From assembly GCF_039536205.1 (NCBI RefSeq), contig NZ_BAAAYL010000001.1, forward strand, positions 682,001 to 746,000: a stretch of DNA of 64,000 nt. Reading direction: 5' to 3'. Below, one piece after another: positions 28,872-43,185 of this stretch. Under the pieces are notes generated by a model. That model made no database searches. It worked only from the letters and a program-made list of their open reading frames with translations, and had not been told where the DNA came from. This DNA is from Streptomyces sannanensis. Its GTDB lineage: Bacteria > Actinomycetota > Actinomycetes > Streptomycetales > Streptomycetaceae. Made by a program: the position numbers and the translations under genes. Position 1 is the stretch's first letter, and each line of letters opens with the position of its first letter.

Positions 28872-28891
28872 GTCGTTTGAACCCGAACGCT
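28872..28891. promoter_or_regulatory. Operator copy A (TCGTTTG-N4-CGAAC)
   Basis: TCGTTTG (28873-28879), four spacer bases, CGAACGC. The half-sites GTTTG/CGAAC match at four of five palindromic positions. It is 92 bases upstream of the glutamine synthetase-like start. Confidence 0.55.
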
Positions 28892-28979
28892 AAGGAGCTC
28901 GACCACTCTCCCGCAAGAGGGTGGTCCAATAAATTTATCCATCCGGACAGCTATTGACCACCCGATGGTGGCTTCTTAT

Positions 28980-28999
28980 CTTGTTTGACGCCAAACGAG
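28980..28999. promoter_or_regulatory. Operator copy B (GTTTG-N4-CAAAC, best palindrome)
   Basis: CTTGTTTG (28980-28987), ACGC, CAAACGAG (28992-28999): a palindrome with 7 of 8 matching half-site positions. Read on the minus strand it is TCGTTTGGCGTCAAAC. It lies upstream of the ferredoxin operon. Confidence 0.65.
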
Positions 29000-29134
29000 T
29001 CAGGAGTGCGGATCCCCCCGGGATTCCGGCGGGTCTCCCGCACCCCTTTGGCCGAGGGGCCCGGTCGTCAGCGGCCGGGCCGCTCTCCCCCCTTCGCCCC
29101 GCCCCGACGCGCCCAACCCCCAGGAGGACCGGCC

Positions 29135-29323
29135 ATGAAGGTCGTCGTCGACATGAACAAGTGCCAGGACCACGGCCAGTGCGTCTTCGCCGCCCCCGAC
29201 GTCTTCCAGATGGACGACAACGGCCGCCTGGCCTTCGTCCCCGACCCGGACGACACCCTGCGCGAAGAGGTCGAGGAAGCCGCCGACGTGTGTCCGCTGC
29301 AGGCCATCCGGATCGAGGACTGA
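29135..29323 (+). CDS. Ferredoxin, [3Fe-4S] type
   Basis: Soluble electron carrier of 62 residues. Cluster ligands are Cys10 and Cys16 in CQDHGQC and Cys53 in DVCPLQAI. His13 occupies the place of a second cysteine, a variant found in actinobacterial P450 redox partners. ATG 29135 with AGGAGG (29122-29127) seven bases before it. It is the first gene of a plus-strand operon and lies five bases before the ferredoxin reductase gene, so the two form a complete electron supply, probably for the P450 at 26033. Confidence 0.88.
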   Translation: MKVVVDMNKCQDHGQCVFAAPDVFQMDDNGRLAFVPDPDDTLREEVEEAADVCPLQAIRIED

Positions 29324-29328
29324 GCCCC

Positions 29329-30537
29329 ATGACCGGACGCATCGTCATCGCCGGCGCCTCCATGGGCGGCCTGCGCGCGGCAGAGCAGCTGCGCGCCGCC
29401 GGCTGGGCCGGCGCGATCACCGTGGTCGGCGACGAGCCCCACATGCCCTACAACCGACCCCCGCTGTCCAAGGAGGTCCTGGCGGGCAAGGCACCGTTCG
29501 AGTCGCTGGCCTTCGCCCCGAAGGCGGCCGCCGCCGACGTGGAGTGGCGGCTCGGTACGAAGGTCGTCGCAGCCCGTCTGGACGAGCGGACCGTCGAACT
29601 CGACGACGGTACGGCACTCGCGTACGACGGTCTGGTCGTCGCCACCGGTATGCGGCCGCGGCGGCTGCGCTGCGAGGGTCCGCTCGCCGGCCGTCACACG
29701 GTCCGCACCCTCGCCGACGCCCAGGGCCTGCGCGAGGAGCTGACCCGGCCCGGTGCCCGGGTGGTCGTGGTCGGCGGCGGCTTCATCGGCTGCGAGGTCG
29801 CGGCGACCGCCGTGGGTCTCGGGGTCACCGAGGTCACGGTCGTCGACCCGCTGCCGCTGCCGATGGTGGGCCCGCTCGGCGAGCTGCTCGCCCGGGCGCT
29901 GCTGAAGCGGCACGAGGAGCGCGGGGTGCACTTCGCGCTCGGCACGGGGGTCGCCGGGTTCGAGGGCGAGGACCGGGTCACCGGCGTCGTACTCGGCGAC
30001 GGGACCGTGCTGCCTGCCGACGTGGTCGTGGAGTCGGTCGGCTCGATCGCCAACACCGAGTGGCTGGACGGCAACGGGCTCGACCTCACCGACGGCGTAC
30101 TGACGGACGAGTTGCTGCGCGTCGGCGGCCTTCCGGAGGTCGTGGCGGTCGGCGATGTGGCCCGCTTCCCCAACGCCCGCTACGACGGCGTACCGCGCCG
30201 GGTCGAGCACTGGTCGATACCGACGGACACCGCCAAGCACGCGGCGAAGGCCCTTGTCGCCCATCTCGTCGGCGGGAAGGCGGAGTTGGCCCCGTTCGCG
30301 CCGCTGCCCACCTTCTGGAGCGACCAGCACGAGTTCCGGCTGCAGTCCTTCGGCTCACCCGTGCTCGGCAAGGACGACGTACGAGTCCTTGACGGCGACC
30401 CGGACGACGACGTTCTGGTCGGTTACCACCACGACGGCCGCCTCGTCGGCGTCGTAGCCCTCGGCGGTCAGGCCGCCGCGATGGGCGCCGCCCGTTACCG
30501 CGCCCAGCTGCTCAAGCAGCCGGCTCTCACCGCGTAA
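29329..30537 (+). CDS. FAD-dependent ferredoxin reductase
   Basis: NAD(P)H:ferredoxin oxidoreductase of 402 residues, putidaredoxin-reductase type. The N-terminal FAD-binding Rossmann motif is IVIAGASMGGLRAAEQLRAA, with a serine where GxGxxG normally has its third glycine. The PYNRPPLSKEVL segment, the NAD motif VVVVGGGFIGCEVAATA and the second FAD motif VVAVGDVARFPN are all visible. It starts at ATG 29329, five bases after the ferredoxin stop. It reduces the preceding ferredoxin and thereby the P450. Confidence 0.88.
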   Translation: MTGRIVIAGASMGGLRAAEQLRAAGWAGAITVVGDEPHMPYNRPPLSKEVLAGKAPFESLAFAPKAAAADVEWRLGTKVVAARLDERTVELDDGTALAYDGLVVATGMRPRRLRCEGPLAGRHTVRTLADAQGLREELTRPGARVVVVGGGFIGCEVAATAVGLGVTEVTVVDPLPLPMVGPLGELLARALLKRHEERGVHFALGTGVAGFEGEDRVTGVVLGDGTVLPADVVVESVGSIANTEWLDGNGLDLTDGVLTDELLRVGGLPEVVAVGDVARFPNARYDGVPRRVEHWSIPTDTAKHAAKALVAHLVGGKAELAPFAPLPTFWSDQHEFRLQSFGSPVLGKDDVRVLDGDPDDDVLVGYHHDGRLVGVVALGGQAAAMGAARYRAQLLKQPALTA

Positions 30538-30549
30538 GGAATCCCCGAC

Positions 30550-31356
30550 ATGACCGGCCTCCGTGGCTTCTTCCACCCCAAGACGGCGAGTGGCGCCTCG
30601 TCACTCATCCCCTCCCCGCCCTGGCGCTACTCCGGCGACCTGCTCACCGTCGAGTACCGCACCGATCCGGCGCGCGTGCGCGAACTTCTGCCCGAGCCGC
30701 TGGAGTTGGCCGACGAGGACCCGGGCGCGGTCGCCCTGATCTGGGCCGACTGGCAGTCCTGCTCGGCGTCGGGGGACGAACTGCTCGACCCCGTGCTCTC
30801 CCAGTACAAAGAGGCTTTCGCGGTCGTCCGCTGCACGTACAAGGGGCAGACCTACACACGCTGCGTGTACATCTGGGTCGACAAGGACTTCGCGATCGCG
30901 CGGGGGCTGCACCAGGGCTATCCGAAAAAGCTCGGGTCCATCCACCAGACCCGCCCGCACCCGTACGGTCCGGCCCCGCGCATCGAGGCCGGTGCCCGCT
31001 TCGGCGCCACCCTCGCCGCCGCGGACCGGCGGCTCGCCCAGGCCGTGGTGACGTTGCGCGAGCCGTCCGAGACCAACGGCTTCGTCAACGGCCACCCCAT
31101 GGCCCACCACCGCTGGCTGCCCTCCATCGAGAAGGGCAAGGGCCTCGCGCTCGACGAGCTGATCGAGTCCGGCGCCGCCTCCTTCGAGGGCGGTCAGCCG
31201 TGGGTCGGCGACGCCGAGCTGGAGCTGTTCGAGGCACCCACCGAGGAGCTGGCACGGCTGGAGATCCGCGAACCGATCGCCGCGTACTACCGGCAGGTCG
31301 GCGTGGTGTGGGACGGCGGGCGACTCCTGGAGTCGAACACCTCCGGCGCCGAGTGA
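30550..31356 (+). CDS. Acetoacetate decarboxylase-like protein
   Basis: Cytoplasmic protein of 268 residues with the acetoacetate decarboxylase fold (PF06314 type). The segment QGYPKKLGSIH contains the lysine expected to form the Schiff base. RVRELLPEPLELADEDPGAV and TYTRCVYIWVDKDFAIARG are family segments. Members decarboxylate beta-keto acids or act as hydratase/aldolase-like enzymes. It sits 12 bases after the ferredoxin reductase and 37 bases before the aldehyde dehydrogenase, in the same operon. A role on a ring-cleavage product or side-chain keto acid is inferred; the enzyme is not part of the classical homoprotocatechuate route. Confidence 0.75.
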   Translation: MTGLRGFFHPKTASGASSLIPSPPWRYSGDLLTVEYRTDPARVRELLPEPLELADEDPGAVALIWADWQSCSASGDELLDPVLSQYKEAFAVVRCTYKGQTYTRCVYIWVDKDFAIARGLHQGYPKKLGSIHQTRPHPYGPAPRIEAGARFGATLAAADRRLAQAVVTLREPSETNGFVNGHPMAHHRWLPSIEKGKGLALDELIESGAASFEGGQPWVGDAELELFEAPTEELARLEIREPIAAYYRQVGVVWDGGRLLESNTSGAE

Positions 31357-31393
31357 CCCGCGTACGACATCGAGTACTTGGAGACCGGACACC

Positions 31394-32860
31394 ATGACCG
31401 AACAGCACACCCTCACCGTCGCCGGGGTCACCGTCGACACCCGGCACTGGATCGGCGGCGAGCGCGTCGCCTCCGCCGAAACGTTCACCGATGTCTCGCC
31501 GATCGACGGCAGCACGATCGGTGAGATCTCTCGCGGAACGGCAATGGAGGCAGCTGCAGCCGTGGCCGCCGCGCATGAGGCCTTCCCCGCCTGGGCGGCC
31601 ACCTCCTGCGCCGAACGCGCCCGCATCCTGCACGCCATCGCCGACGGCGTGGAGAAGCGGCTCGAAGAGCTCGCGATCGTCGAGACGACCGACAACGGTG
31701 CGCTGCTGCGCTCGCACCGCCGCGGTGTGATGCCCCGCGTGGCACACAACTTCCGCTTCTTCGCCGACTGGTTGCTGAAGCTCGACCACGAGGAATTCGA
31801 GACTCGGGGTCATACCAACCACGTCTCCTGGGACCCGGCCGGCCCGTGCGTGCTGATCACGCCGTGGAACGCCCCCCTGATGTTGGCGACCTGGAAGGTG
31901 GCCCCGGCCCTCGCCGCCGGCAACACGGTCGTCCTCAAGCCCGCCGAGTGGTCCCCGCTGACCGCCTCCCTGCTCGCCGACATCGCGGCGGAGGCGGGGC
32001 TGCCGGCCGGTGTGCTGAACGTCGTGCAGGGCTACGGCTCCGAGATCGGCGACGCGCTCACCTCGCACCCGGACGTGCGCCGGATCAGTTTCACCGGCTC
32101 CGTGCCGACGGCCAAGCACATCGCTGCCTCGGCGGCCGCCCACCTGACGCCTCTGAGTCTCGAGCTCGGCGGCAAGTCACCGCTGCTGGTGTTCGCGGAC
32201 GCCGACCTGGACCTTGCCGTCGACCTCGCGGTCGAGCAGTACGACAACGCCGGGCAGGTGTGCCTGGCCGCGACCCGCTTCCTCGTCGAGGAGCCGATCG
32301 TCGAGGAATTCACCCGCCGCTTCGTCGAGAAGGCCGGGCGGCTCACGCAGGGGGACCCGCGTGAGGAGGCCACCGACATCGGGCCCAATATCCATCCCCG
32401 TCAGCTGGAGAAGATCGACGGGTTCGTGCAGCGGGCAATCGCGTCCGGCGCGCGGGCGGTCATCGGCGGGCACCGCAAGGACGGCCAGTACTACGCGCCC
32501 ACCCTCCTCACCGACGTCGCCCAGGACTCCGAGATCGTGCAGGAGGAGGTCTTCGGGCCGGTGCTGACCCTGCAGACCTTCGCCGACGAGGACGAGGCCG
32601 TGCGGCTGGCCAACGACACCCGGTTCGGGCTCGCCGCGACCGTCGCCACCGGGGACCACGAGCGCGCCGAGCGGGTCACCGCGCGGCTCGTCGCGGGCAC
32701 CGTCTGGGTCAACTGCTTCTTCGTCCGCGACCTGCAGGCGCCCTTCGGCGGCTCCCGCCAGTCCGGTGTCGGCCGCGAGGGCGGCACGTGGAGCTTCGAC
32801 TTCTACTGCGACCTGAAGAACACCGTCACCGCCCCGAAGGGTTGGAAGGACCATGGGTGA
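31394..32860 (+). CDS. hpaE: Aldehyde dehydrogenase, 5-carboxymethyl-2-hydroxymuconate semialdehyde dehydrogenase-like
   Basis: NAD-dependent dehydrogenase of 488 residues. The catalytic cysteine is in DNAGQVCLAATRF, the general-base glutamate in SLELGGKSPLLV, and cofactor binding in FTGSVPTAKHIA. Context favours HpaE function: oxidation of the semialdehyde formed by extradiol cleavage of 3,4-dihydroxyphenylacetate or an analogue. The next gene is an HpaD-type dioxygenase and the one after that is HpaG-like. The 3' end overlaps the dioxygenase start by eight bases (ATGGGTGA), indicating translational coupling. The symbol is assigned by similarity and context only. Confidence 0.82.
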   Translation: MTEQHTLTVAGVTVDTRHWIGGERVASAETFTDVSPIDGSTIGEISRGTAMEAAAAVAAAHEAFPAWAATSCAERARILHAIADGVEKRLEELAIVETTDNGALLRSHRRGVMPRVAHNFRFFADWLLKLDHEEFETRGHTNHVSWDPAGPCVLITPWNAPLMLATWKVAPALAAGNTVVLKPAEWSPLTASLLADIAAEAGLPAGVLNVVQGYGSEIGDALTSHPDVRRISFTGSVPTAKHIAASAAAHLTPLSLELGGKSPLLVFADADLDLAVDLAVEQYDNAGQVCLAATRFLVEEPIVEEFTRRFVEKAGRLTQGDPREEATDIGPNIHPRQLEKIDGFVQRAIASGARAVIGGHRKDGQYYAPTLLTDVAQDSEIVQEEVFGPVLTLQTFADEDEAVRLANDTRFGLAATVATGDHERAERVTARLVAGTVWVNCFFVRDLQAPFGGSRQSGVGREGGTWSFDFYCDLKNTVTAPKGWKDHG

Positions 32861-33779
32861 GATCGTCGGGGCGGGCCTGCTCGCCCACGTCCCCACCATC
32901 GTGCTGCCGGAGGAGACCCGGCTGGAGCTGAACGAGGGCAAGGAGATCACCCTCGTCACCGGCCTCCGGCAGCTCCGGAAGGACGTCTTCGAGCGCGACG
33001 ACTACGACACCGTCGTCGTTCTCGACTCGCACTGGGCGACCACCGTCGAGTTCGTCGTCACGGCACAGGACCGCCGGGCGGGTCTGTTCACCTCCGAGGA
33101 GCTCCCGCGCGGTATGTGCCGGATGCCGTACGACTTCCCCGGCGACCCCGAACTCGCCCACAACATCGCGTCGTTCGCCGACAAGCACGGCACCTGGATC
33201 ACCGCGATCGACGACGCCTACCTGCCGGTCTACTACGCCACCATCAACCTCTGGAAGTTCCTGGGCGAGGGTCTGCCGGACAAGCGGTGGGTGACCGTCG
33301 GCGTCTGCCAGACGGGGGACATGGAGGACCACCTGCGCCTCGGCCGCGCCCTCGCCGACGGCATCGCCGCCACCCCCGGCCGGCGGGTCCTGCTCATCGC
33401 CTCCGGCGCCCTCTCGCACACCTTCTGGCCGCTGCGCGAGCTGCGCGACCACGAGGCCGGCGACCCGTCGCACATCTTCACGCCCGAGGCCCGTGAGGCA
33501 GACCACGAACGGATCGCCTGGTTCAAGGAGGGCCGTCACGACAGGGTCCTCGACACGATGGACGAGTTCTGGAAGTACAAGCCGGAGGCGAAGTTCTTCC
33601 ACTACCTGATGATGGCCGGCGCCCTGGGCGAGCAGGCCTGCATCGCGAAGGCCCGCCAGTACGGCGAGTACGAGAACTCGATCGGCACCGGACAGGTGCA
33701 CCTCTGGTTCGACCGTCCCGCCGACGGCTGGACCGGCACCGGTCTGCCCACCCCGCGTACCCCGCACAGCCGTATCTAG
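32853..33779 (+). CDS. hpaD: 3,4-dihydroxyphenylacetate 2,3-dioxygenase-like class III extradiol dioxygenase
   Basis: Ring-cleaving Fe(II) dioxygenase of 308 residues, LigB superfamily. Metal-ligand and acid/base histidines are in GAGLLAHVPTIVLPEE and VVLDSHWATTVEF, with SGALSHTFWPLREL later. YDFPGDPELAH and SIGTGQVHLWF are family segments. It opens the aromatic ring of homoprotocatechuate or a related catechol next to a hydroxyl group. ATG 32853 overlaps the upstream dehydrogenase gene. The substrate could be another para-substituted catechol, because no HpaBC-type hydroxylase is encoded nearby. Confidence 0.85.
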   Translation: MGEIVGAGLLAHVPTIVLPEETRLELNEGKEITLVTGLRQLRKDVFERDDYDTVVVLDSHWATTVEFVVTAQDRRAGLFTSEELPRGMCRMPYDFPGDPELAHNIASFADKHGTWITAIDDAYLPVYYATINLWKFLGEGLPDKRWVTVGVCQTGDMEDHLRLGRALADGIAATPGRRVLLIASGALSHTFWPLRELRDHEAGDPSHIFTPEAREADHERIAWFKEGRHDRVLDTMDEFWKYKPEAKFFHYLMMAGALGEQACIAKARQYGEYENSIGTGQVHLWFDRPADGWTGTGLPTPRTPHSRI

Positions 33780-33789
33780 GAGTTCCACC

Positions 33790-34638
33790 ATGCCCGAGTA
33801 CCGCCGCATCCTCCTCGACGGCGCCGCCGTCCAGGTCACCGTCGACGGGGACGAACTCGTCGCCGGGGACGGCCGCCGCGTCAAGATCGAGGAAGCCCAG
33901 CACCTGCCCCCGGTGGTCCCCTCCAAGGTGATCGCCGTCCACCTCAACCACCGCAGCCGCGTCGACGAGTTCCAGATCGACCTGCCCGACACCCCCACCT
34001 ACTTCCACAAGCCGACCTCGGCCCTCAACTCCCACAAGGGCGCCATCGTCCGCCCCGAGGGGTGCAAGTGGCTCAACTACGAGGGCGAGGTCGCCATCGT
34101 CATCGGGAAGACCGCGCGCAACATCTCGCCGGCCGAGGCGGGGGAGTACATCGCGGGCTACACCGTCGCCAACGACTACGGCCTGCACGACTTCCGCGAC
34201 ACCGACGCCGGCTCCATGCTCCGGGTCAAGGGCTCCGACACGCTCTGCCCGCTCGGCCCGGGGCTCGTCACCGACTGGGACTTCCACGGCAAGTACCTGC
34301 GGACGTATGTGAACGGCGAGGTCGTGCAGGACGGTTCGACCGACGAGATGAAGTGGGACATGCACTACCTCGTCGCCGACATCGCCCGCACCATCACCCT
34401 GTACCCCGGCGACGTGCTGCTCTCCGGCACCCCCGCCAACTCCCGGCCCGTCCGGCCCGGCGACGTCGTGGAGGTCGAGGTGGAAGGGCTCGGACGGCTG
34501 ACGAACCACATCGTCACCGGCCCGACCCCGATCCGCAGCGACGTCGGCGCCCAGCCCACCGAGTCCGAGGAAGTCCTGTCCACCGCGCTCGGCGGCGACT
34601 GGGAGTTCCGCGGCATCCGCCCGCCGAAGCGCGGCTGA
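33790..34638 (+). CDS. Fumarylacetoacetate hydrolase family protein, HpaG-like
   Basis: Metal-dependent hydrolase/decarboxylase/isomerase of 282 residues. The divalent-metal site is seen as WLNYEGEVAIVIGK (two glutamates) and TVANDYGLHDFRD (aspartate). Also present are LRVKGSDTLCPLGP and GDVLLSGTPANSRPVRPGDV, both typical of the family. In the homoprotocatechuate route HpaG decarboxylates and isomerises the tricarboxylate made by HpaE. It lies ten bases after the dioxygenase gene and closes the visible operon. A hairpin (34723-34748) follows. HpaF, HpaH and HpaI equivalents are not present here. Confidence 0.82.
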   Translation: MPEYRRILLDGAAVQVTVDGDELVAGDGRRVKIEEAQHLPPVVPSKVIAVHLNHRSRVDEFQIDLPDTPTYFHKPTSALNSHKGAIVRPEGCKWLNYEGEVAIVIGKTARNISPAEAGEYIAGYTVANDYGLHDFRDTDAGSMLRVKGSDTLCPLGPGLVTDWDFHGKYLRTYVNGEVVQDGSTDEMKWDMHYLVADIARTITLYPGDVLLSGTPANSRPVRPGDVVEVEVEGLGRLTNHIVTGPTPIRSDVGAQPTESEEVLSTALGGDWEFRGIRPPKRG

Positions 34639-34722
34639 CGCCCTCGTGACCGCGCCGCGCCAGGCATGACGGGAACGTCGTCCGGTGCGGCGCGCGGACA
34701 TCGTCCGCCGGCCGGTCCGCCG

Positions 34723-34748
34723 GCGCATCGGTCGGATGGCCGATGCGC
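34723..34748 (+). terminator. Hairpin after the ring-cleavage operon
   Basis: A 9-bp perfect stem (34723-34731 with 34740-34748) and an 8-nt loop, between the HpaG-like gene and the amidohydrolase gene. Confidence 0.55.
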
Positions 34749-34843
34749 ACCCACCCGGCCAAGCCGCAGAGTCGCCGCAATTCCGGGTGCGTCATTCGTC
34801 AGGCGACTCGCCGCAGCACCCACGTACGCACTGGGAGGTCTCC

Positions 34844-36547
34844 ATGCCCGACTTCGCCGATCTGGTCTTCGTGAACGGCTCCGTGCTCACCGTCGACCCC
34901 GACTTCACCGTGGCCTCCGCGCTCGCGGTCACCGACGGCGTCATCACCGCCGTAGGGGCGCGAGCGGACGTCGAGGACCGCATCGGCCCGGACACCCGGG
35001 TCGTCGACCTCGACGGGGGCACCCTCCTGCCCGGTATCAACGACTCCCACCTGCACGGATGCGCCTGGGGGGTCACTTCTCCCCCGCTGGCGCTCGAACT
35101 CGGTTATCCCGCCGTGCGGTCGATCGCCGATGTGGCCGAGGCGGTGCGCACGGCGGCCGAGAGCACCCCGCCCGGCCAGTGGATCACCGGCACCGGCTGG
35201 GACCTGGGCTACCTGGCCGAGTCCGTGGAGGACCCCTCGCGCCTGCCCACCCGGCACGACCTGGACGCCGTCAGCCCGGACCACCCGGTACTGCTGATGG
35301 ACTTCTCCGCGCACGCCACCTGGGTCAACTCCGCAGCGCTCGCCGTCGCCGGGGTCGACCGGGGCACGGCGGTCCCGCCCGGCGGGGTCGTCGTCACCGA
35401 TGACGAGGGCGAGCCCACGGGCCTGTTCCAGGAAGGCGCCCAGGCGCTGGTCCAGCGGGCGCTGCCGCCGCTCACCCCGGACGTCCGGGCCCTGGCGATC
35501 CGGTCCACGCTGGCCAAGCTGCGGGCACTCGGCATCACCAGCTACACCGAGCCGGGCCTCGGTCCCGGCGGTGACCGGATCATGGGCGGGGCGCTGTCCC
35601 AGGAGACCCTCGACGTCTACCGGCGGCTCCTGGCCGACGGTGAACTGACCGCCCGCGTGAACGTGCTGCTTCTGCCCACCGGCATGTCGAGCACGGCGGC
35701 CGACTTCGCACGTGCCCTGGACGCCCTCGACGTACCGGAAAGCGATGACCCGCGACGGCTGAACGTCATCGGGGTCAAGATCTTCGCCGACGGCATCCCG
35801 CCCAACAGGACGGCCTGGATGCACGAGGCGTACCTCGGCGGTGGCTGCGGCGCGCTGTGCGTGAACGGCGAGACCGACGAGGAACGGGTCGCCGAGATCG
35901 CGGAGATGGTGAGGCACGCGCACGCCGCCGGCCACCAGCTCGGCGTGCACGTCACCGGGGACCGCGGCATCGACACCGTCGTCGACGCCTTCGCCGCCGC
36001 CACCGCCGGGCACCCGCGCCCGGACGCCCGGCACTACGTCATCCACGGGGACTTCCTCACCCCGCACAGCATGAAGACGCTCGCCGAGCACGGCTTCGGC
36101 GTCAACATGAACCCCACCATCAAGTGGACCATCGCCGACCTGGAGGAGGGGCTCGTGGGGCCGGAGCGGGCCGCCTACGAGTGGCCGTACCGGGACGCCC
36201 TCGACGCCGGGATCAGGGTGGCGAGCAGCTCGGACGCGCCGGTCACCTTCCCCGACTGGCGCCAGGGCATCACCACGATGCTGCTGCGCGAGTCGAAGGG
36301 AAGCGGCCGGGTCAGCGGGCCCGGACAGCGCATCACGCTGGCCGAGGCGGTACGCACGTACACGATCGACGCGGCCCGGCAGGATTTCGCCGAGGAGTGG
36401 AAGGGCTCCCTGGAGGTCGGCAAGGTCGCCGACCTGTGCGTGCTGGCCGGTGATCTGCTCACCGCCGACCCGCACGCCATACCGGAGCTGCCGGTGGTGC
36501 TCACCGTGCTCGGCGGGGAGGTGGTGCACGACGCGCTCGACAGCTGA
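34844..36547 (+). CDS. Amidohydrolase, YtcJ-like
   Basis: Metal-dependent hydrolase of 567 residues. The HxH metal motif is in PGINDSHLHG, further ligands are in LGVHVTGDRGID and VIHGDFLTPHSM, and the terminal aspartate is in VASSSDAPVTFPDW. The final segment SLEVGKVADLCVLAGDL is standard for the superfamily. ATG 34844 with GGGAGG five bases before. YtcJ-like proteins hydrolyse amides or carbamates of uncharacterised small molecules. In this island it may release an amine or aromatic acid from an amide precursor; this is inference. A TetR regulator follows. Confidence 0.82.
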   Translation: MPDFADLVFVNGSVLTVDPDFTVASALAVTDGVITAVGARADVEDRIGPDTRVVDLDGGTLLPGINDSHLHGCAWGVTSPPLALELGYPAVRSIADVAEAVRTAAESTPPGQWITGTGWDLGYLAESVEDPSRLPTRHDLDAVSPDHPVLLMDFSAHATWVNSAALAVAGVDRGTAVPPGGVVVTDDEGEPTGLFQEGAQALVQRALPPLTPDVRALAIRSTLAKLRALGITSYTEPGLGPGGDRIMGGALSQETLDVYRRLLADGELTARVNVLLLPTGMSSTAADFARALDALDVPESDDPRRLNVIGVKIFADGIPPNRTAWMHEAYLGGGCGALCVNGETDEERVAEIAEMVRHAHAAGHQLGVHVTGDRGIDTVVDAFAAATAGHPRPDARHYVIHGDFLTPHSMKTLAEHGFGVNMNPTIKWTIADLEEGLVGPERAAYEWPYRDALDAGIRVASSSDAPVTFPDWRQGITTMLLRESKGSGRVSGPGQRITLAEAVRTYTIDAARQDFAEEWKGSLEVGKVADLCVLAGDLLTADPHAIPELPVVLTVLGGEVVHDALDS

Positions 36548-36552
36548 CGATC

Positions 36553-36669
36553 GTGACGGTACGCACTGTCGCCACCGACATCGAGCACATCCTGGCCAAG
36601 CTCGACGTGCCCAACCGGGTGGCGACGGCCGCTCGTGCTCATGCCTGGGGCCTGGAGCCCCTGGCATGA
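36553..36669 (+). pseudogene. Scrap of a LuxR-family regulator
   Basis: The frame TVRTVATDIEHILAKLDVPN followed by RVATAARAHAWGL is the second half of a GerE/LuxR helix-turn-helix (RTV-H---I--KL-V--R pattern). Only 38 codons remain, and the stop lies in a hairpin (36634-36674). Confidence 0.65.
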
Positions 36670-36674
36670 GCACG
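36634..36674 (+). terminator. Long hairpin between amidohydrolase and TetR genes
   Basis: An 18-bp stem with one mismatch (36634-36651 with 36657-36674) and a 5-nt loop. Probably terminates the amidohydrolase transcript. Confidence 0.7.
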
Positions 36675-36727
36675 GGCGGTGCCCGGGCCTGTACCCCGGA
36701 GGGCCATGGCCCGGTAGGGTCGCAGTC

Positions 36728-37375
36728 ATGACCGGTTCCGCCGAGACCCGTGACGGGCGCAAGCCGCGAAGGAAGCGCATGAACTACGGGGAGGGCCGGG
36801 AGGCCCTGCTCAACGCGGCGGTGCGGGTCGTGGCGCGCGGCGGTCTGCGCGGGCTCACCTACCGGGCGGTGGCGGAAGAGGCGGGCACGACCCACGGCCT
36901 GGTCGTACACCACTTCGGCTCGCGCGACGCTCTGATCGAGGAGGCGCTCACCCACGCCGTGCGCACCAGCGTGAGCGTGAGCGCGGTCGAGCCGGGGACG
37001 GGCAAGGTCGCCGACTTCTCGGCCGGACTCTCCGAGATGGTGACCGCCGATCCCGACATCCAGGCGTTCCAGTACGAGTTGCTGCTGGAGTCCCGGCGCC
37101 GCCCCGAACTGCTGCCGCAGATCCGCGCCCTGTACGACGACTACATCGCCGCCACCGAGCGCGAGCTGTCCCGCATGCTCCCCGAAGGCGCCGGCCGGCC
37201 CCTGACCCGGTTGGTGTTCGCGGCCCTGGACGGCCTCGTGCTGCACCAGCTCGTGTTCGGCGAGCCCGAAGTCACCGACGCCGCTGTCGAGGAGCTGCGG
37301 TCACTGCTGCGGCTGCTCGACGCCGACGGGCACGCCGGCGCGGATCCCGAGATGGACACCGAACCCCGGGACTGA
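36728..37375 (+). CDS. TetR/AcrR-family regulator of the catabolic island
   Basis: Repressor of 215 residues. A basic N-terminal tail (DGRKPRRKR) precedes the helix-turn-helix (GLRGLTYRAVAEEAGTTHGL, then VVHHFGSRDALIEEAL). The ligand domain is helical (FQYELLLESRRRPELLPQIR). ATG 36728. It lies between the amidohydrolase and the permease gene and is one of two candidates, with the MarR protein at 42434, for binding the shared operator. No copy of that operator is seen directly upstream of it. Confidence 0.85.
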   Translation: MTGSAETRDGRKPRRKRMNYGEGREALLNAAVRVVARGGLRGLTYRAVAEEAGTTHGLVVHHFGSRDALIEEALTHAVRTSVSVSAVEPGTGKVADFSAGLSEMVTADPDIQAFQYELLLESRRRPELLPQIRALYDDYIAATERELSRMLPEGAGRPLTRLVFAALDGLVLHQLVFGEPEVTDAAVEELRSLLRLLDADGHAGADPEMDTEPRD

Positions 37376-37592
37376 CCCGCCGCCCTGCCCTTGCCAACCC
37401 GCTGACCTCTTCCGAGGCCCTGGACGTCTTGTGTCCCGGGCCTCGCCCGTTGTCGCCCGCCGCCCGGCGACCCGGTCGAGGCCACCGTCCGGGCTGTCGC
37501 CGCGGTAGCGGCACCGTAAGGAACCGCGCACATCCTGAGAAAGCCCACGCAACCCCTTGCCAAACGGATAGTTCGACCCCAGTATGAGGCAA

Positions 37593-37612
37593 CTCGTTTG
37601 GCCAGAAACGAA
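37593..37612. promoter_or_regulatory. Operator copy C upstream of the permease gene
   Basis: CTCGTTTG (37593-37600), GCCA, GAAACGAA (37605-37612). It lies just downstream of a possible promoter (TTGCCA near 37557 and AGTATG 18 bases later), a position suited to repression. Confidence 0.6.
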
Positions 37613-37639
37613 CCCCTCTTCCCCCGGCAGGTGATCCGA

Positions 37640-39097
37640 GTGGACAGTCCGACGGCGGTCAGATACCAGACCGCGGCCGACGCCTCCACCGCAGGCAAGC
37701 TCAAGCCCGACTCCCTCGGCGTTATGGGCATCCTCTTCTTCGTCCTCTCCGCCCAGGCGCCGCTGACCGGCATCGCGGGCGCCGTCCCCATCGCCGTCGC
37801 CCTCGGCAACGGCCCCGCAGCGCCCTCGGCCTATGTCGCGGCCGGTGTGATCACCCTGCTGTTCTCGGTCGGGTTCGTGGCCATGGGCCGGCACGTCGTG
37901 GACGCAGGCGCGTTCTACACGTACATCGGCAAGGGCCTCGGCCGCCCCCTGGGCACCGGCAGCGCCGGCATCGCCCTGTTCGCGTACTGCGCGATCCAGG
38001 CCGCCATGTACGGCCTGTACGGGGCGACCGTGAGCGGCCTGCTGGCCCAGTACGCGGGGGCAGACGTGCCCTGGTGGGTGTGCGCCGTGGCCACCATGGC
38101 GATCGTCCAGATCCTGGGTGCCTCCGGCATCGAGATGGGTGCCAAGGTCCTGGCGGTCTTCGTCCTGGCCGAGTTCAGCATCCTCAGCGTCTTCGCGCTC
38201 GTCACCCTGTTCAAGGGTGGGGGGCCCGAGGGGCTCGGTTTCTCCGGCAGCTTCTCGCCCGGTGCGGCGGTGAAGGGGGCCCCGGGTGTGGCGCTGATGT
38301 TCGCCGCCGCGTCGATGGTCGGCTTCGAGGCCACAGCCATCTACGGCGAGGAGGCGCGCGAACCCCGCAAGACGGTGCCCAGGGCAACCTACCTGGCCGT
38401 CGCCTTCGTGACCGGCTTCTTCGCCTTCGCCTCCTGGATGCTGGTCTCCTCGTACGGGGCCTCGAAGGCGACAGCGGCCGCGGGCAACGCGCTGGCGAGC
38501 GGCGACTCGACGAGCTTCGTCTTCGCCCCGATCGCCGCGCAGTTGGGAGCCTGGGTCAATGACGTCCTGCCCGTCCTGCTGGCCACTTCCCTGTTCGCCG
38601 GCATTCTGGCCTTCCACAACTCCGCAAACCGCTACCTGTTCTCCCTCAGCCGCGACGGGCTCCTGCCCCGCAGGCTGTCGTCGATCAACCGGCGGCACTC
38701 GCCCGGGGTGGCCGGCTGGGTCCAGACGGCGATCGCGGGCCTGCTGGTCGCACCCTTCGCACTGGCCGGCAAGGACCCGGTGCTGACCCTGTTCTCCTGG
38801 GGCAGCGGTGTGGCCGTGCTGGGGATCATGCTGCTGTACTTCCTGACCTCGGTCTCCGTGGTCGCCTTCTTCCGCCGGGAACACCTGGACACCCGGCCCT
38901 GGAACACCCTGATCGCCCCTGTCCTGGGCGCCGTCGGCATCGCCTGCGCGATCTGGCTGATCGTCCGGAACTTCCCCACCCTCATCGGCGGCGACATGAC
39001 CACCGCAGTCTGGCTCGGGATGACCGTCCCGGTGGTGCTGGTCCTGGGGGTCTGCGCCGACCGGCTGACCCGCGGCAGGGCACCCGCCGACGGCTGA
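37640..39097 (+). CDS. APC-family amino acid/amine permease
   Basis: Inner-membrane transporter of about 485 residues with 12 or more hydrophobic segments. SLGVMGILFFVLSAQAPLTG opens the first helix with the unwound GxG-type substrate site, FEATAIYGEEAREPRKTVPR is the conserved loop after helix 6, and FHNSANRYLFSLSRDGLLP is the helix-8 signature. GTG 37640 is preferred because AGGTGA precedes it. A TTG at 37598 would lie inside the operator. Related permeases import putrescine, other amines or amino acids, which fits the gamma-glutamyl ligase and hydrolase of this island. Confidence 0.83.
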   Translation: MDSPTAVRYQTAADASTAGKLKPDSLGVMGILFFVLSAQAPLTGIAGAVPIAVALGNGPAAPSAYVAAGVITLLFSVGFVAMGRHVVDAGAFYTYIGKGLGRPLGTGSAGIALFAYCAIQAAMYGLYGATVSGLLAQYAGADVPWWVCAVATMAIVQILGASGIEMGAKVLAVFVLAEFSILSVFALVTLFKGGGPEGLGFSGSFSPGAAVKGAPGVALMFAAASMVGFEATAIYGEEAREPRKTVPRATYLAVAFVTGFFAFASWMLVSSYGASKATAAAGNALASGDSTSFVFAPIAAQLGAWVNDVLPVLLATSLFAGILAFHNSANRYLFSLSRDGLLPRRLSSINRRHSPGVAGWVQTAIAGLLVAPFALAGKDPVLTLFSWGSGVAVLGIMLLYFLTSVSVVAFFRREHLDTRPWNTLIAPVLGAVGIACAIWLIVRNFPTLIGGDMTTAVWLGMTVPVVLVLGVCADRLTRGRAPADG

Positions 39098-39107
39098 CAT
39101 GCGTCAT

Positions 39108-39137
39108 CCGGTGCGGTCCCGTCCCGGCCCGCACCGG
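39108..39137. terminator. Weak hairpin between convergent permease and amidotransferase genes
   Basis: A 9-bp stem (39108-39116 with 39129-39137) and a 12-nt loop lie in the 72-bp gap between two stop codons. Confidence 0.4.
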
Positions 39138-39169
39138 GCGTCGACCGCGCAAGCGCCGGGCGCGGTCTG

Positions 39170-39886
39170 TCAGCGGCCTCCGGCCGGGTACGCCACCCGG
39201 TCGAGGAAGCCGTCCACCAGGCGGCGGGCGTTCTCGCGCGCCGTCGCTTCCATGGCGCGGCTGTGCGCGAGCAGCTCGTCGGGGTCGACGCCGTGCTGTG
39301 CGCACTGCTTGCGTCCGTCGAGGTCGAGATACGCGCGGATCACCGCCGTGGTGATCTCCGGGTGGAACTGCACCCCAAGGGCGCGGCCGGCGCGGAACGC
39401 CTGCGCGCATGTTGCGTTGCGGGCCAGCTCCACGGCCCCGGGTGGCAGGACACAGCGGTCGTAGTGCCACTGCATCCACGGGCCGGACGGCACCAGGGAG
39501 GGGTCGTCGGTGTCGACCTCGACCCAGCCGATCTCGGGGCGCGGGGCCGCCTCGACCGAGCCGCCGAGCGCAGTGGCCAGGGCCTGGGCGCCGAAGCAGA
39601 CGCCGAGCACCGGGACGCCGAGGTGGTGGGCCTTGCGCAGCAGCGCGAGCTCACCGCCGATCCAGGTACCGACGGCCGTCGCGTCGTACACCGACCAGGG
39701 AGCGCCGAGCGACACGACCAGATCCCAGCCGTCGGCGTCGGGGAAGGTGAAGGGAACGTCCGGCGTGCGGTGCTGGTGTTCGGGCACGACCGTCACGGTC
39801 GTGAGGTCGTACCCGCGCTCGGTGAGCCGGGCCCCGACCAGCCCGGGCTCCGTGAAGTGGTCGTGCTGGACGATGAGTGCGCGCAC
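39170..39886 (-). CDS. Class I glutamine amidotransferase-like protein
   Basis: Stand-alone GATase1-fold protein of 238 residues. The nucleophile cysteine is in LGVCFGAQALATALGG, and the His-Glu pair is in GVQFHPEITTAV. ATG 39886. Such proteins act as gamma-glutamyl or amide hydrolases or as amidotransferases for a partner ligase. Divergent from the aldehyde dehydrogenase at 40014, with operator copy D in the 127-bp gap between them, it is probably part of the same regulon. A GATase-like partner for a glutamine synthetase-like ligase is also known from aniline catabolism, which makes the pairing with the ligase at 27426 suggestive. Confidence 0.8.
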   Translation of the reverse strand: MRALIVQHDHFTEPGLVGARLTERGYDLTTVTVVPEHQHRTPDVPFTFPDADGWDLVVSLGAPWSVYDATAVGTWIGGELALLRKAHHLGVPVLGVCFGAQALATALGGSVEAAPRPEIGWVEVDTDDPSLVPSGPWMQWHYDRCVLPPGAVELARNATCAQAFRAGRALGVQFHPEITTAVIRAYLDLDGRKQCAQHGVDPDELLAHSRAMEATARENARRLVDGFLDRVAYPAGGR

Positions 39887-39975
39887 GCCTGCTGCTCCTT
39901 TCGCGGATCCGGCGAATCCACCGGACCGATGTCACGAGTCCTCGGAGCCCTTGTGGTGACTCCCCGGCCGATCAT

Positions 39976-39995
39976 ATCGTTTGACATCAAATGTT
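39976..39995. promoter_or_regulatory. Operator copy D between amidotransferase and aldehyde dehydrogenase genes
   Basis: ATCGTTTG (39976-39983), ACAT, CAAATGTT (39988-39995). It is 19 bases upstream of the dehydrogenase start. Confidence 0.6.
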
Positions 39996-40013
39996 CTCTC
40001 TCGGAGGTCCCGC

Positions 40014-41504
40014 ATGCTGGATGTCACCCACGACGAGTGGCTGCGCCGCGCCAAGGCGCTGGAGGTGTCCGGCGCCCATCACATCGACGGCGCAGACGAA
40101 CCCGGCTCAGGAGCGAGCTACGCCGCCGTCTCCCCCCGTGACGGCCAGGTTCTGGCCCAGGTGGCGGACGGGTGCGCCGCCGAGGTGGACGCGGCCGTGG
40201 CCGCCGCCCGGCGGGCGTTCGACTCCGGGCCATGGCCGCGCCTGGCCCCCGCCGAACGCGGCGGGGTACTGGTGCGGATCGCCGAACTGCTCGAGGAGCG
40301 GCGCGAGGAACTGGCGCTCGCCGTCAGCCTGGAGATGGGCAAGCCCATCACCGACGCCTACGGGATCGAGCTGCGCGCCGTCATCAACACCTTCCGCTGG
40401 TACGGCCAGCTGGCCGACAAACTCACCGACGAGTCGCCGCGCAGCGCCCCCGACACCCTCGCCCTCGTCACCCGGGAACCCGCCGGGGTCGTCGGCGCGG
40501 TCGTGCCCTGGAACTTCCCTCTGACGCTGGCCGGCTGGAAGGTCGCCCCGGCACTCGCGGCCGGCTGCACCGTCGTACTGAAGCCGTCGGAGAACTCGCC
40601 GCTGTCCGCCCTGCTGCTCGGGCGCATCGCGACCGAGGCCGGACTCCCACCCGGCGTGCTCAACGTCGTCAACGGCGACGGTCCGACAGCCGGGCAGGCC
40701 CTTGGCCTGCACCCCGACGTCGACGTCCTGGCCTTCACCGGCTCCACCGCCGTCGGCCGCCACTTCCTGCGCTACGCCGCAGATTCCAACCTCAAGCGCG
40801 TCCGGCTCGAACTGGGCGGCAAATCACCCAACATCATCCTCCCCGACGCCCCCGACCTGGAGCAGGCCGCCGCCACCGCGGCCTGGGGCATCTTCTTCAA
40901 CCAGGGCGAGATGTGCACCGCCCCCTCCCGGCTCCTCGTGCACTCCTCGATCGCCGAGCAGGTCACCGAGGCCGTGGTGCGCAGGGCGCGGGAGCTGCGG
41001 GTCGGTGACCCGCTCGACCCCGCCACGGAGATGGGCGCGCTGGTCGGCGAGGGCCATCTGGAGCGCGTCCAGGACCACATCGGCGCGGGTCTGGCCGAGG
41101 GGGCGCGGTTGCGCACGGGCGGCTCCCGCACGCTGGAGTCCACGGGCGGCTCGTACCTGCAACCGACCGTCTTCGACGAGGTGGCCCCCGGGATGCGCCT
41201 GGCCCGCGAGGAGATCTTCGGCCCCGTCCTGTCCGTCCTCACCTTCGACGATCTGGAGGAGGCGGTACGGCTGGCCAACGCCACCGAGTACGGCCTCGCC
41301 GCCGCCCTGTGGACCTCCGATCTGTCCACCGCCCACCGGGTCTCCCGCGCCCTGAAGGCGGGCACGGTCTGGGTCAACTGCTACGAGGAGGGCGACCTCA
41401 CCGTCCCCTTCGGCGGCATGAAGCAGTCCGGCAACGGCCGCGACAAGTCCGCCCACGCCATCGAGAAGTACACCGAACTCAAGACCACCTGGATCCAACT
41501 GTGA
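40014..41504 (+). CDS. Aldehyde dehydrogenase, PuuC-like
   Basis: NAD(P)-dependent dehydrogenase of 496 residues. The catalytic cysteine is in FNQGEMCTAPSRL, the glutamate in VRLELGGKSPN, and FTGSTAVGRHFL binds cofactor. ATG 40014 with GGAGGT (40003-40008); the longer reading from TTG 39981 would begin inside the operator. It overlaps the downstream hydrolase by four bases (GTGA). This tight pairing with a PuuD-like hydrolase suggests oxidation of a gamma-glutamyl-amino aldehyde to the acid, as PuuC does. The specific aldehyde is not known. Confidence 0.85.
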   Translation: MLDVTHDEWLRRAKALEVSGAHHIDGADEPGSGASYAAVSPRDGQVLAQVADGCAAEVDAAVAAARRAFDSGPWPRLAPAERGGVLVRIAELLEERREELALAVSLEMGKPITDAYGIELRAVINTFRWYGQLADKLTDESPRSAPDTLALVTREPAGVVGAVVPWNFPLTLAGWKVAPALAAGCTVVLKPSENSPLSALLLGRIATEAGLPPGVLNVVNGDGPTAGQALGLHPDVDVLAFTGSTAVGRHFLRYAADSNLKRVRLELGGKSPNIILPDAPDLEQAAATAAWGIFFNQGEMCTAPSRLLVHSSIAEQVTEAVVRRARELRVGDPLDPATEMGALVGEGHLERVQDHIGAGLAEGARLRTGGSRTLESTGGSYLQPTVFDEVAPGMRLAREEIFGPVLSVLTFDDLEEAVRLANATEYGLAAALWTSDLSTAHRVSRALKAGTVWVNCYEEGDLTVPFGGMKQSGNGRDKSAHAIEKYTELKTTWIQL

Positions 41505-42223
41505 CCCGTTCCTCTTCGCGCCCTCTCATCGCGATCCCCGCCCGCTTCTCCGCCACCACCTCCGCCCTGCGCTACGCCGCCGAGGTCAACGCCCGCGCCC
41601 TCGTCGAGGCCGTGTGGCGGGCCGGCGGCGAACCGGCCACCATCCACCCGGCCGACCCCGCCGAGACCGACATCGGCGCCCGGCTGGCCCGCTTCGACGG
41701 CATCCTGCTGCCCGGCGGCGGCGACCTGGCCCCGCACCGCTACGGCGCCACCGACACCCACGACAGCGTCTACGACGTCGACGAACTCCAGGACGCCTTC
41801 GACATCGAGGCCGCCCGCCAGGCACTCGACCTGGGGCTACCCCTGCTGGCGATCTGCCGCGGCCTGCAGGTCGTCAACGTCGCCCTCGGCGGCACCCTGG
41901 AGCAGGACATGGGCGGCCCGGAGCGCGAGCACCGCCACGTCGTGCACCCGGTGACCATCCGGCGCGGCACGCTTCTCGAACAGGCCACCGGCGCCGAGAA
42001 GGCGGAGGCTTCCTGCTACCACCACCAACGCGTCGACCGCCTCGGCACCGGACTCACGGTCACCGCACAGGCCGCCGACGAGACCGTGGAAGGGCTCGAA
42101 CTCCCTGGCATCCACGGCTGGTTCACCGCCGTCCAGTGGCACCCCGAGGACACCGCCCACGAAGACCCCGCCCACCAGGGGCTCTTCGACGCCCTCGTCC
42201 GGGCCGCCCGCGACCGACGCTGA
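41501..42223 (+). CDS. Gamma-glutamyl-gamma-aminobutyrate hydrolase family protein (PuuD-like)
   Basis: Class I GATase-fold hydrolase of 240 residues (peptidase C26 type). The nucleophile cysteine is in LLAICRGLQVVNVALGGTL, the His-Glu pair in AVQWHPEDTAHED, and GILLPGGGDLAPHRYG is the family oxyanion region. GTG 41501 overlaps the TGA of the dehydrogenase. It would cleave the gamma-glutamyl amide to free glutamate and the product acid, completing the cycle begun by the ligase at 27426. Confidence 0.87.
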   Translation: MTRSSSRPLIAIPARFSATTSALRYAAEVNARALVEAVWRAGGEPATIHPADPAETDIGARLARFDGILLPGGGDLAPHRYGATDTHDSVYDVDELQDAFDIEAARQALDLGLPLLAICRGLQVVNVALGGTLEQDMGGPEREHRHVVHPVTIRRGTLLEQATGAEKAEASCYHHQRVDRLGTGLTVTAQAADETVEGLELPGIHGWFTAVQWHPEDTAHEDPAHQGLFDALVRAARDRR

Positions 42224-42433
42224 CACCGCCACGGCACTCTTCAGCCGCAGACAGCAGGCGCCCCGCCTCGCCCCGGAACTGGACGACACCGCGCTCGGCC
42301 GGGTCCTCAAGGGCGTCGCCTCAGCCGCAGGTGGAGCCCCTGTTCGACCAGGCCCTGGGCCACTGGCTGCGGCCCGGCCACCCACGCCATGCCGCCAACG
42401 TCCGCCGACCTGGGCCTGGGCGGGCCTGCCCTA

Positions 42434-43006
42434 TCAGGCCTTCGGCCGCCGGCCACTGCGCCGCGGTGCCGGCTCCGCGCCGTCGAGCAGGGCGAGACGG
42501 CGCTCCTGCCCGTTTTCCTCGACCTGGAGCACGACCTGCCGCAGCCCCTCGGCGACGCTCGCGCACTCCGCGTCGCTGAGCCGCGTGCTGACGAACGCCT
42601 CCTCCTGGTTGAACGCCGGGAACAACCGCCGCATCAGTGCCTCACCCTCCTCGGTGAGGCTGAGCAGCACCAGTCGGCCGTCGGCCGGATGGCCGGTCCG
42701 CCTGAGGAGCCCGCGTCCCTCCAGGGTGCGCGAGACCCCGGTGAGCGTCCCCTTGGAAATCCCGGCCTCCTCCGCGACGTGCCGGGTCTCCGACTCACCC
42801 CAGACCCAGACCACCCAGAGCACGACGAACGCCGTCCACGTCAGGTCGGCACCGCGCAGCACGGAGTTCTCCAGGTGCTGCCGCACGGCCGAGGCGGCGC
42901 GGTAGATGTTGGAAACGAGGGCCATCTGCTCACTGCGCAGGGGTATGCCACCGAGCTTGGCAGCGGCAAGCTTCTCGGCTTCGGCGATGGATCGGTGGCC
43001 GGGCAT
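42434..43006 (-). CDS. MarR-family regulator
   Basis: Winged-helix regulator of 190 residues. Dimerisation helices flank the DNA-binding core: HVAEEAGISKGTLTGVSRTL is the recognition helix and LLRRTGHPADGRLVLLSLTE is the wing with its conserved DGR. ATG 43006 with AAGGAG (43013-43018) upstream. A degenerate operator copy (43049-43068) lies 43 bases before the start, suggesting autoregulation. HpaR of the enterobacterial homoprotocatechuate operon is also a MarR protein. That makes this the leading candidate for controlling the island, although the assignment is by analogy. Confidence 0.85.
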   Translation of the reverse strand: MPGHRSIAEAEKLAAAKLGGIPLRSEQMALVSNIYRAASAVRQHLENSVLRGADLTWTAFVVLWVVWVWGESETRHVAEEAGISKGTLTGVSRTLEGRGLLRRTGHPADGRLVLLSLTEEGEALMRRLFPAFNQEEAFVSTRLSDAECASVAEGLRQVVLQVEENGQERRLALLDGAEPAPRRSGRRPKA

Positions 43007-43048
43007 GGCACACTCCTTCGGCGCGGGGCGATACGACGGTTCGCGGAT

Positions 43049-43068
43049 GTCGTTCGGACTCAAATTGT
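43049..43068. promoter_or_regulatory. Operator copy E (degenerate) upstream of the MarR gene
   Basis: GTCGTTCG (43049-43056), GACT, CAAATTGT (43061-43068). It matches TCGTTTGACATCAAAT of copy D at 12 of 16 positions. The palindrome is weak. On the minus strand a TACAAT (43064-43069) next to it could be the -10 box. Confidence 0.4.
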
Positions 43069-43185
43069 ACGAAGTACCCGGAGGCCGGAGCGCCGCTTGC
43101 TCCCCCGGACGTGGGCAGACGGCTCCTCCGACAGGACGTGCCGCTCGAGGTGGACGCAGTGGCCGGTGGCGTTCTGCCCCCACCC

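Follow-up and report, generated by a model that had tools for sequence, protein, structure and literature searches.

A 64,000-nucleotide stretch of Streptomyces sannanensis DNA (contig NZ_BAAAYL010000001.1, positions 682,001 to 746,000; the window in what follows) carries five copies, A to E, of a MarR-type operator spread over a catabolic gene cluster. The consensus is TCGTTYG-N4-CRAACGA, and its strict palindromic form is TCGTTTG-N4-CAAACGA. The motif is real, and the MarR-family protein encoded at 42434-43006 in the same cluster is very probably its reader, a regulator that would repress five promoters and to which a TetR-family regulator would have been added in Streptomycetaceae. A second palindrome, TATCCR-N2-YGGATA, absent from the initial annotation, appears from its distribution to belong to this later-added regulator at two of the same control regions. 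Here we describe the presence, position and conservation of the sites and their co-occurrence with the two regulators.

A rare operator repeated across a catabolic cluster

The positions previously given for the five copies (Table 1) were confirmed to within 1 base, and the figure of about 13 identical positions in 16 among copies was a fair one (12-14 of 18 by hand count). The motif had also been called rare by chance, which the genome bears out. The strict palindrome with at most three mismatches matched the window five times (A to D and one match at 63747), compared with a mean of 1.03 and a maximum of 4 over 100 shuffles. With at most two mismatches it was found at six places in the 7,832,297-base genome, versus two for the reversed pattern, and A to D account for four of these six; the Poisson probability of four matches within 11.1 kb at the background rate is ∼2 × 10−10 to 3 × 10−12. 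The loosened consensus TCGTTYG-N4-CRAACGA with two mismatches occurred at 32 places versus 20 for its reversed control, and is thus too noisy for extending the regulon in the source genome. Copy E, described earlier as degenerate, does have more than three mismatches to the strict palindrome and would fail that test taken alone; counterparts precede marR in many relatives, and E ranks fourth with the matrix from distant loci (below). Its degenerate look may be due to the bases that it shares with the −10 box of marR.

The two other strict matches in the genome (457503 and 6951833) represent a single sequence carried by a terminal inverted repeat. It falls within the 5′ part of an open reading frame, and both matches were set aside as coding, though not proven idle. 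Stretch 452000-463000 (L133) of G000 C1 matches stretch 6946500-6957500 (L134) in the opposite orientation, with 100% identity across 10,854 bases. The two lie at mirrored distances from the contig ends, as would either an assembly duplication or a terminal inverted repeat of very large size (at least ∼460 kb if continuous).

The same operator was recovered independently from distant loci. A class-wide search of Actinomycetes found the MarR protein in 32 of 394 genomes and 16 of 137 genera, and 20 distant loci (G+C 0.45 to 0.73, stretches up to 19.5 kb) were fetched through it. At least four partner genes were present in 18 of the 20; L215 has the ligase and the permease, and L216 has MarR alone. 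A first matrix, made from genus sites with at most two mismatches (L133, L134, L146 and L147 excluded), includes the window's own sites and is therefore not independent. For motif work in the distant set, 18 of the 20 loci (MarR 42-61% identical) were used, L216 and L217 (MarR >70% identical) being dropped, and the upstream regions of TetR, AmdH and UDG matches were excluded.

All 16,384 7-base half-sites were enumerated as palindromes with a 4-base spacer in 155 upstream regions of these 18 loci. TCGTTCG headed the list (66 regions), followed by TCGTTTG (34 regions); after a single dinucleotide shuffle both fell to 0, and the best half-site was found in 6 regions. A matrix grown from the winning half-site, using the distant loci alone, placed A, B, C, E and D, in that order, as the top five of all window positions. 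D scored 11.8 bits, the next position, at 63747, scored 11.3 bits, and the highest score in each of 20 shuffled windows lay between 5.4 and 16.2. Single scores of 12-16 thus also arise in shuffled windows, as they might if the repeated motif were a product of chance or a general promoter element, and the evidence lies in the ranking and the set rather than in single sites.

The position of the sites in the distant loci follows operon structure. Sites precede the operon heads, namely the glutamine-synthetase-type ligase (GS; 17/18), the glutamine amidotransferase (GAT; 14/14), HpaE (12/14), the acetoacetate-decarboxylase-like gene (12/15), MarR (13/18), the APC permease (6/8) and the P450 (5/19). 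None was found there before the internal genes for LigB (0/13), FAH (0/14), ferredoxin reductase (0/10) and ferredoxin (Fd; 0/9), or before the aldehyde dehydrogenase (ALDH; 0/3). Loci fetched at the family level through the GS ligase, not through MarR, had the site in 17 of 18 cases, and MarR was present in all 13 searched genomes of that set. Among 80 named-genome loci, 79 of them with readable upstream DNA (L228 is cut upstream), the site preceded MarR in 64, versus 98 of 7,251 other 170-base windows of those loci, some of which hold sites of other genes. Genome-wide rarity, unbiased palindrome enumeration in distant loci and the lack of sites before internal genes leave a chance origin or a general promoter element with virtually no probability, and chance was rejected.

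MarR and TetR as candidate readers of sites A to E

Two regulators are encoded in the cluster, and the initial annotation had put MarR first and offered the TetR protein at 36728 as the alternative reader of the motif; the first choice stands and the alternative falls. The MarR assignment draws on PF01047, precomputed for the window protein, and on phmmer matches to 30 distinct PDB sequences, most of which are named as members of the MarR/OhrR family. The predicted model (pLDDT 89) matches PcaV, HpaR-DNA and BpsR, a structure comparison that confirms the fold only. Site E provides, by sequence, a palindrome at the protein's own promoter. Across 22 aligned MarR proteins (to 42% identity), an alignment that took in 3 of 120 listed proteins, the recognition region does not vary at S84, K85, T87, L88, G90 or V91. 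The TetR protein scores above the cut-offs of PF00440 and PF17940.

The genus sample comprised 199 genomes, with TetR in 34 (E 1e-20), the ligase in 43 (E 1e-120) and MarR in 51 (E 1e-20). The motif at one mismatch or none was found in 42 of the 199, and 34 of these have MarR, whereas the reversed control pattern was found in 10 genomes, 3 of them with MarR. In the fetched TetR-positive clusters, where a site was counted at up to three mismatches and up to 260 bases before a gene, it preceded Fd in 30/30, APC in 29/29 and GS in 29/31, with ∼103-108 bp between A and B.

The GS promoter separates the two candidates. A MarR-type site was present there in 32/32 loci with both regulators, 8/8 with MarR but not TetR, 0/1 with TetR but not MarR and 1/2 with neither (43 of 44 genus loci; the GS locus of G144 is cut upstream). 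The eight are not all independent, since G055, G150 and G165 are near-copies and one case is the second locus of a genome, G033, that encodes TetR elsewhere. The single TetR-positive locus without MarR, G147, has TetR and the TetR palindrome but no MarR-type site, and its sole MarR-like match is 30% identical. The 18 distant loci keep MarR together with the motif and the gene set, and in the distant stretches fetched TetR is represented by no more than one partial match (47%), at the margin of L204. TetR is encoded within the cluster and accompanies it in 33 genus loci, and the form of site C has been seen only beside TetR, so that TetR might bind the motif while MarR does something else. Such a role for TetR is nevertheless highly improbable given the eight TetR-less promoters that keep the motif, the distant loci and G147, and it was rejected.

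Several observations weigh against MarR as the reader of one fixed set of sites. C is asymmetric at one inner position, and the same position (G, A or T for C) is affected in the inspected C copies of TetR-positive clusters. The distant loci were fetched through MarR, so that its presence there is by selection. Before MarR itself, 15 named-genome loci fail the site test, 13 of them holding a weaker copy by eye, and in the genus the site precedes 36 of 52 MarR genes, orphan copies included. G081, the one exception, has MarR-type sites and no MarR match (contig of 5 kb, assembly of 700 contigs). Eight motif-bearing genus genomes lack MarR, approximately the control level, and 17 of the 51 MarR-positive genomes lack the motif at one mismatch or none (11 without and 6 with a GS match). 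Finally, a site precedes ALDH (D) in 12 of 31 TetR-positive clusters and is missing, with more than three mismatches, in the other 19. D is the least position-conserved site, and the GAT/ALDH promoter is not a fixed member of the regulon. The earlier proposal of one regulon across the island holds for the sites, which do stand at the promoters it named; the regulon itself we infer, and the low recurrence of D limits its edge, not the identity of the regulator.

Other sites and ligases were seen in relatives. In several of them TCGTTAGG..CCAAACGA sites (L092:18259, L093:1406 and L147:3201, for example) lie between genes for a LuxR-type regulator and an ABC-type binding protein, close to an LLM-type oxidoreductase gene, and are possible further MarR targets. 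In L112 (G158), a 77% identical ligase stands beside other genes, without MarR, TetR or either palindrome, so that the ligase can exist outside the regulon.

A second palindrome and the proposed control

In the alignment of 15 GS/Fd intergenic regions, TTGACC is invariant, B is joined to a TA..TT, and a conserved block resembling TATCCA..TGGATA lies between the two promoters. The corresponding palindrome, at two mismatches or fewer, was present at the GS promoter in 33/33 TetR-positive loci and 0/10 TetR-negative ones (one of the ten being the second locus of G033). The prediction was extended to further genomes of the same and other genera, in which 10 of 11 cases with the palindrome had a TetR match, compared with 0 of 6 cases that lacked it; the palindrome-positive genome without a TetR match, G682, has 1,260 contigs, and L198/G551, a partial GS match without a MarR-type site, was left out. 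The palindrome also precedes three of four TetR paralogues of the genus sample. At the permease promoter, the variant TTGYCANNYGGATA at one mismatch or none was found in 27 of 29 TetR-positive cases, and the single TetR-negative permease lacks it.

Two points count against this assignment to TetR. The contrast between TetR-positive and TetR-negative loci partly follows phylogeny, most TetR-negative GS proteins being more distant (G055, G150 and G165 are near-copies). The permease variant is a weaker claim, because those same permease sequences supplied it and it departs from the palindrome at 2-4 positions. The palindrome lies ∼46 bp before the predicted Fd start, an activator-like distance, and could be an activator site or the site of a regulator other than the linked TetR; its tracking of TetR in both genome sets and its place before the TetR paralogues make this unlikely.

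Promoter geometry suggests how the two regulators would act. A, B and E overlap predicted −10 boxes, C lies just after one and D, starting at CATATC, a candidate −10 by sequence, probably overlaps another. Sites in such positions imply that bound MarR would block transcription. The putative TetR site adjoins the Fd −35 box, and its variant covers that of the permease. TCGTTYG-N4-CRAACGA would serve as the binding site of a MarR dimer at five promoters: those of GS-P450, of the operon from ferredoxin to amidohydrolase/TetR, of the permease, of the amidotransferase together with ALDH-hydrolase, and of marR, where the position of E implies autorepression. A pathway compound would release MarR and open transcription. 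In Streptomycetaceae, the added TetR would read TATCCR-N2-YGGATA beside the −35 boxes of the GS/Fd promoters and probably also the variant on the permease −35, so that a double lock, answering to two signals, would sit on the GS/Fd and permease promoters.

The most economical interpretation is that MarR would repress by obstructing RNA polymerase, at its own promoter as well. Some MarR proteins activate, and HpaR is described as doing so at a distant site in Yersinia (PMC7180172), but the five sites occupy positions typical of blocking, and activation by MarR is quite improbable. MarR and TetR binding, repression, ligand and pathway we infer from sequence.

A candidate pathway and its known relatives

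Gene identities in the cluster (Table 1) were taken from Pfam and NCBIfam.

Table 1. Operators, regulators and cluster genes located in the window
Feature	Position	Strand	Remarks
Operator A	28873..28890	+	TCGTTTGAACCCGAACGC; overlaps predicted −10 (TTAGCG, minus strand 28888-28893) of GS/P450 operon
Operator B	28981..28998	+	TTGTTTGACGCCAAACGA; overlaps −10 of ferredoxin operon (TTGACC 28954, TATCTT 28977-28982)
Operator C	37594..37611	+	TCGTTTGGCCAGAAACGA; just 3′ of APC permease promoter (predicted −10 CAGTAT 37580-37585)
Operator D	39977..39994	+	TCGTTTGACATCAAATGT; between divergent amidotransferase and ALDH genes
Operator E	43050..43067	-	TCGTTCGGACTCAAATTG; before marR; left half-site shares bases with −10 TACAAT (43064-43069)
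Putative TetR operator	28936..28949	+	TATCCATCCGGACA; 2 mismatches to ideal palindrome; between two divergent −35 boxes
Putative TetR operator variant	37557..37570	+	TTGCCAAACGGATA; 3 mismatches to palindrome; overlaps predicted APC −35; less certain
MarR-family regulator	42434..43006	-	190 aa; predicted winged-helix fold
TetR-family regulator	36728..37375	+	215 aa; TetR_N plus TetR_C_31
Cytochrome P450	26033..27349	-	closest solved chains CYP125/CYP124
Glutamine-synthetase-type ligase	27426..28781	-	putative gamma-glutamyl-amine synthetase
Ferredoxin	29135..29323	+	
Ferredoxin reductase	29332..30537	+	start codon not fixed
Acetoacetate-decarboxylase/MppR-like protein	30550..31356	+	
HpaE-like semialdehyde dehydrogenase	31394..32860	+	
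LigB/HpaD-like extradiol dioxygenase	32853..33779	+	
FAH-family hydrolase, HpaG-like	33790..34638	+	
Amidohydro_3 amidohydrolase	34844..36547	+	between FAH and TetR in the window, not in other mapped clusters
APC-type amino-acid/amine permease	37640..39097	+	
Class-I glutamine amidotransferase-like protein	39170..39886	-	
PuuC-like aldehyde dehydrogenase	40014..41504	+	
C26 (PuuD-like) gamma-glutamyl hydrolase	41501..42223	+	start overlaps ALDH stop; absent from the initial annotation

The gene content suggests that an aromatic amine would be capped with a gamma-glutamyl group, oxidised by the P450 and cleaved at the ring, both substrate and ligand being deduced from the genes: an amine-type ligase, gamma-glutamyl hydrolases, a P450 system and ring-cleavage enzymes together point to such a substrate. 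In betalain-type chemistry, an amine cyclises onto a ring-opened semialdehyde. We tentatively propose, at somewhat less than even chances, a class-wide actinomycete pathway in which an aromatic amine would be gamma-glutamylated, oxidised by the P450 and ring-opened by the LigB-type dioxygenase, the cap preventing cyclisation of the amine onto the semialdehyde that ring opening yields; in Streptomycetaceae TetR would have added a second lock, at two of the same promoter regions, to an ancient MarR lock, and the pathway would open only in response to two signals. The 20 distant loci include relatives of pyridoxal-phosphate (PLP)-dependent decarboxylases in 6, the C26 hydrolase in 12 and an F420-type LLM oxidoreductase in 11. 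The best family matches of the PLP-dependent decarboxylases are diaminobutyrate, aspartate and tyrosine decarboxylases, and their presence fits an amine made from an amino acid. GS-like enzymes able to glutamylate aromatic monoamines and ethanolamine are described, namely PauA7 and GlnA4 (PMC6529630). Homologues of the Amidohydro_3 protein (61-63%) lie near MarR in L077, L085 and L091, and 19 named loci have one.

These results provide a candidate operator, regulator and gene list for a catabolic system whose MarR occurs in 16 of the 137 sampled Actinomycetes genera. With the sites assigned to their most likely regulator, ligand and substrate become testable. If the pathway is as proposed, gamma-glutamyl amine catabolism would extend to ring cleavage, and the TetR sites may represent a case of a lineage adding a second regulator to an existing regulon, with new sites beside the old.

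MarR-family repressors of aromatic catabolism are already known, including PcaV in Streptomyces (PMC5487221); this particular regulon is absent from the literature searched, in which (titles and the starts of abstracts) no description of the regulon, pathway or operator was found. The closest likeness in ring cleavage is to HpaR, a MarR-family repressor of the homoprotocatechuate meta-cleavage operon (hpa-meta), the window cluster having HpaD-, HpaE- and HpaG-like enzymes. The footprinted HpaR palindrome is reported to have 4 bp arms and a 4 bp spacer, with one site centred at −8, but it reads TTAA-N4-TTAA, in contrast to TCGTTYG-N4-CRAACGA in the window (PMC7180172). The window cluster also adds a ligase, a P450 and hydrolases to the hpa-meta set. 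Against the NCBIfam HpaR equivalog, the window MarR scores 42.7 bits, below the cut-off of 121.2, and the HpaD (126.1 of 315.95 bits) and HpaE (540.5 of 638.35 bits) equivalog scores likewise fall short.

On the amine side, the ligase, the PuuC-like dehydrogenase, the PuuD-like hydrolase and the permease have the roles of their counterparts in the Puu putrescine pathway, whose regulator is PuuR. Among the matches listed for 17 scanned window proteins there was none to a PuuB-type oxidase model, and PuuA (254.6 of 650 bits) and PuuC (565.5 of 850 bits) remain below their equivalog cut-offs. By these Puu and Hpa scores, the window enzymes are relatives, not members, of those pathways. The ethanolamine utilisation cluster of Streptomyces coelicolor (GlnA4/EpuRI) also places a GS-like gamma-glutamyl ligase under a repressor and contains aldehyde dehydrogenase, transporter and amidotransferase genes; the description consulted names no P450 or ring-cleavage genes (PMC6529630). 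The Streptomyces MarR regulators SAV4189 and PcaV resemble the window MarR in family and in the repression proposed for it (PMC6036246, PMC5487221). SAV4189 is reported to read TTGCCYKHRSCAA, a 13 bp TTGCC palindrome, and to have other target genes, and its palindromes cover its own −35/−10 region (PMC6036246).

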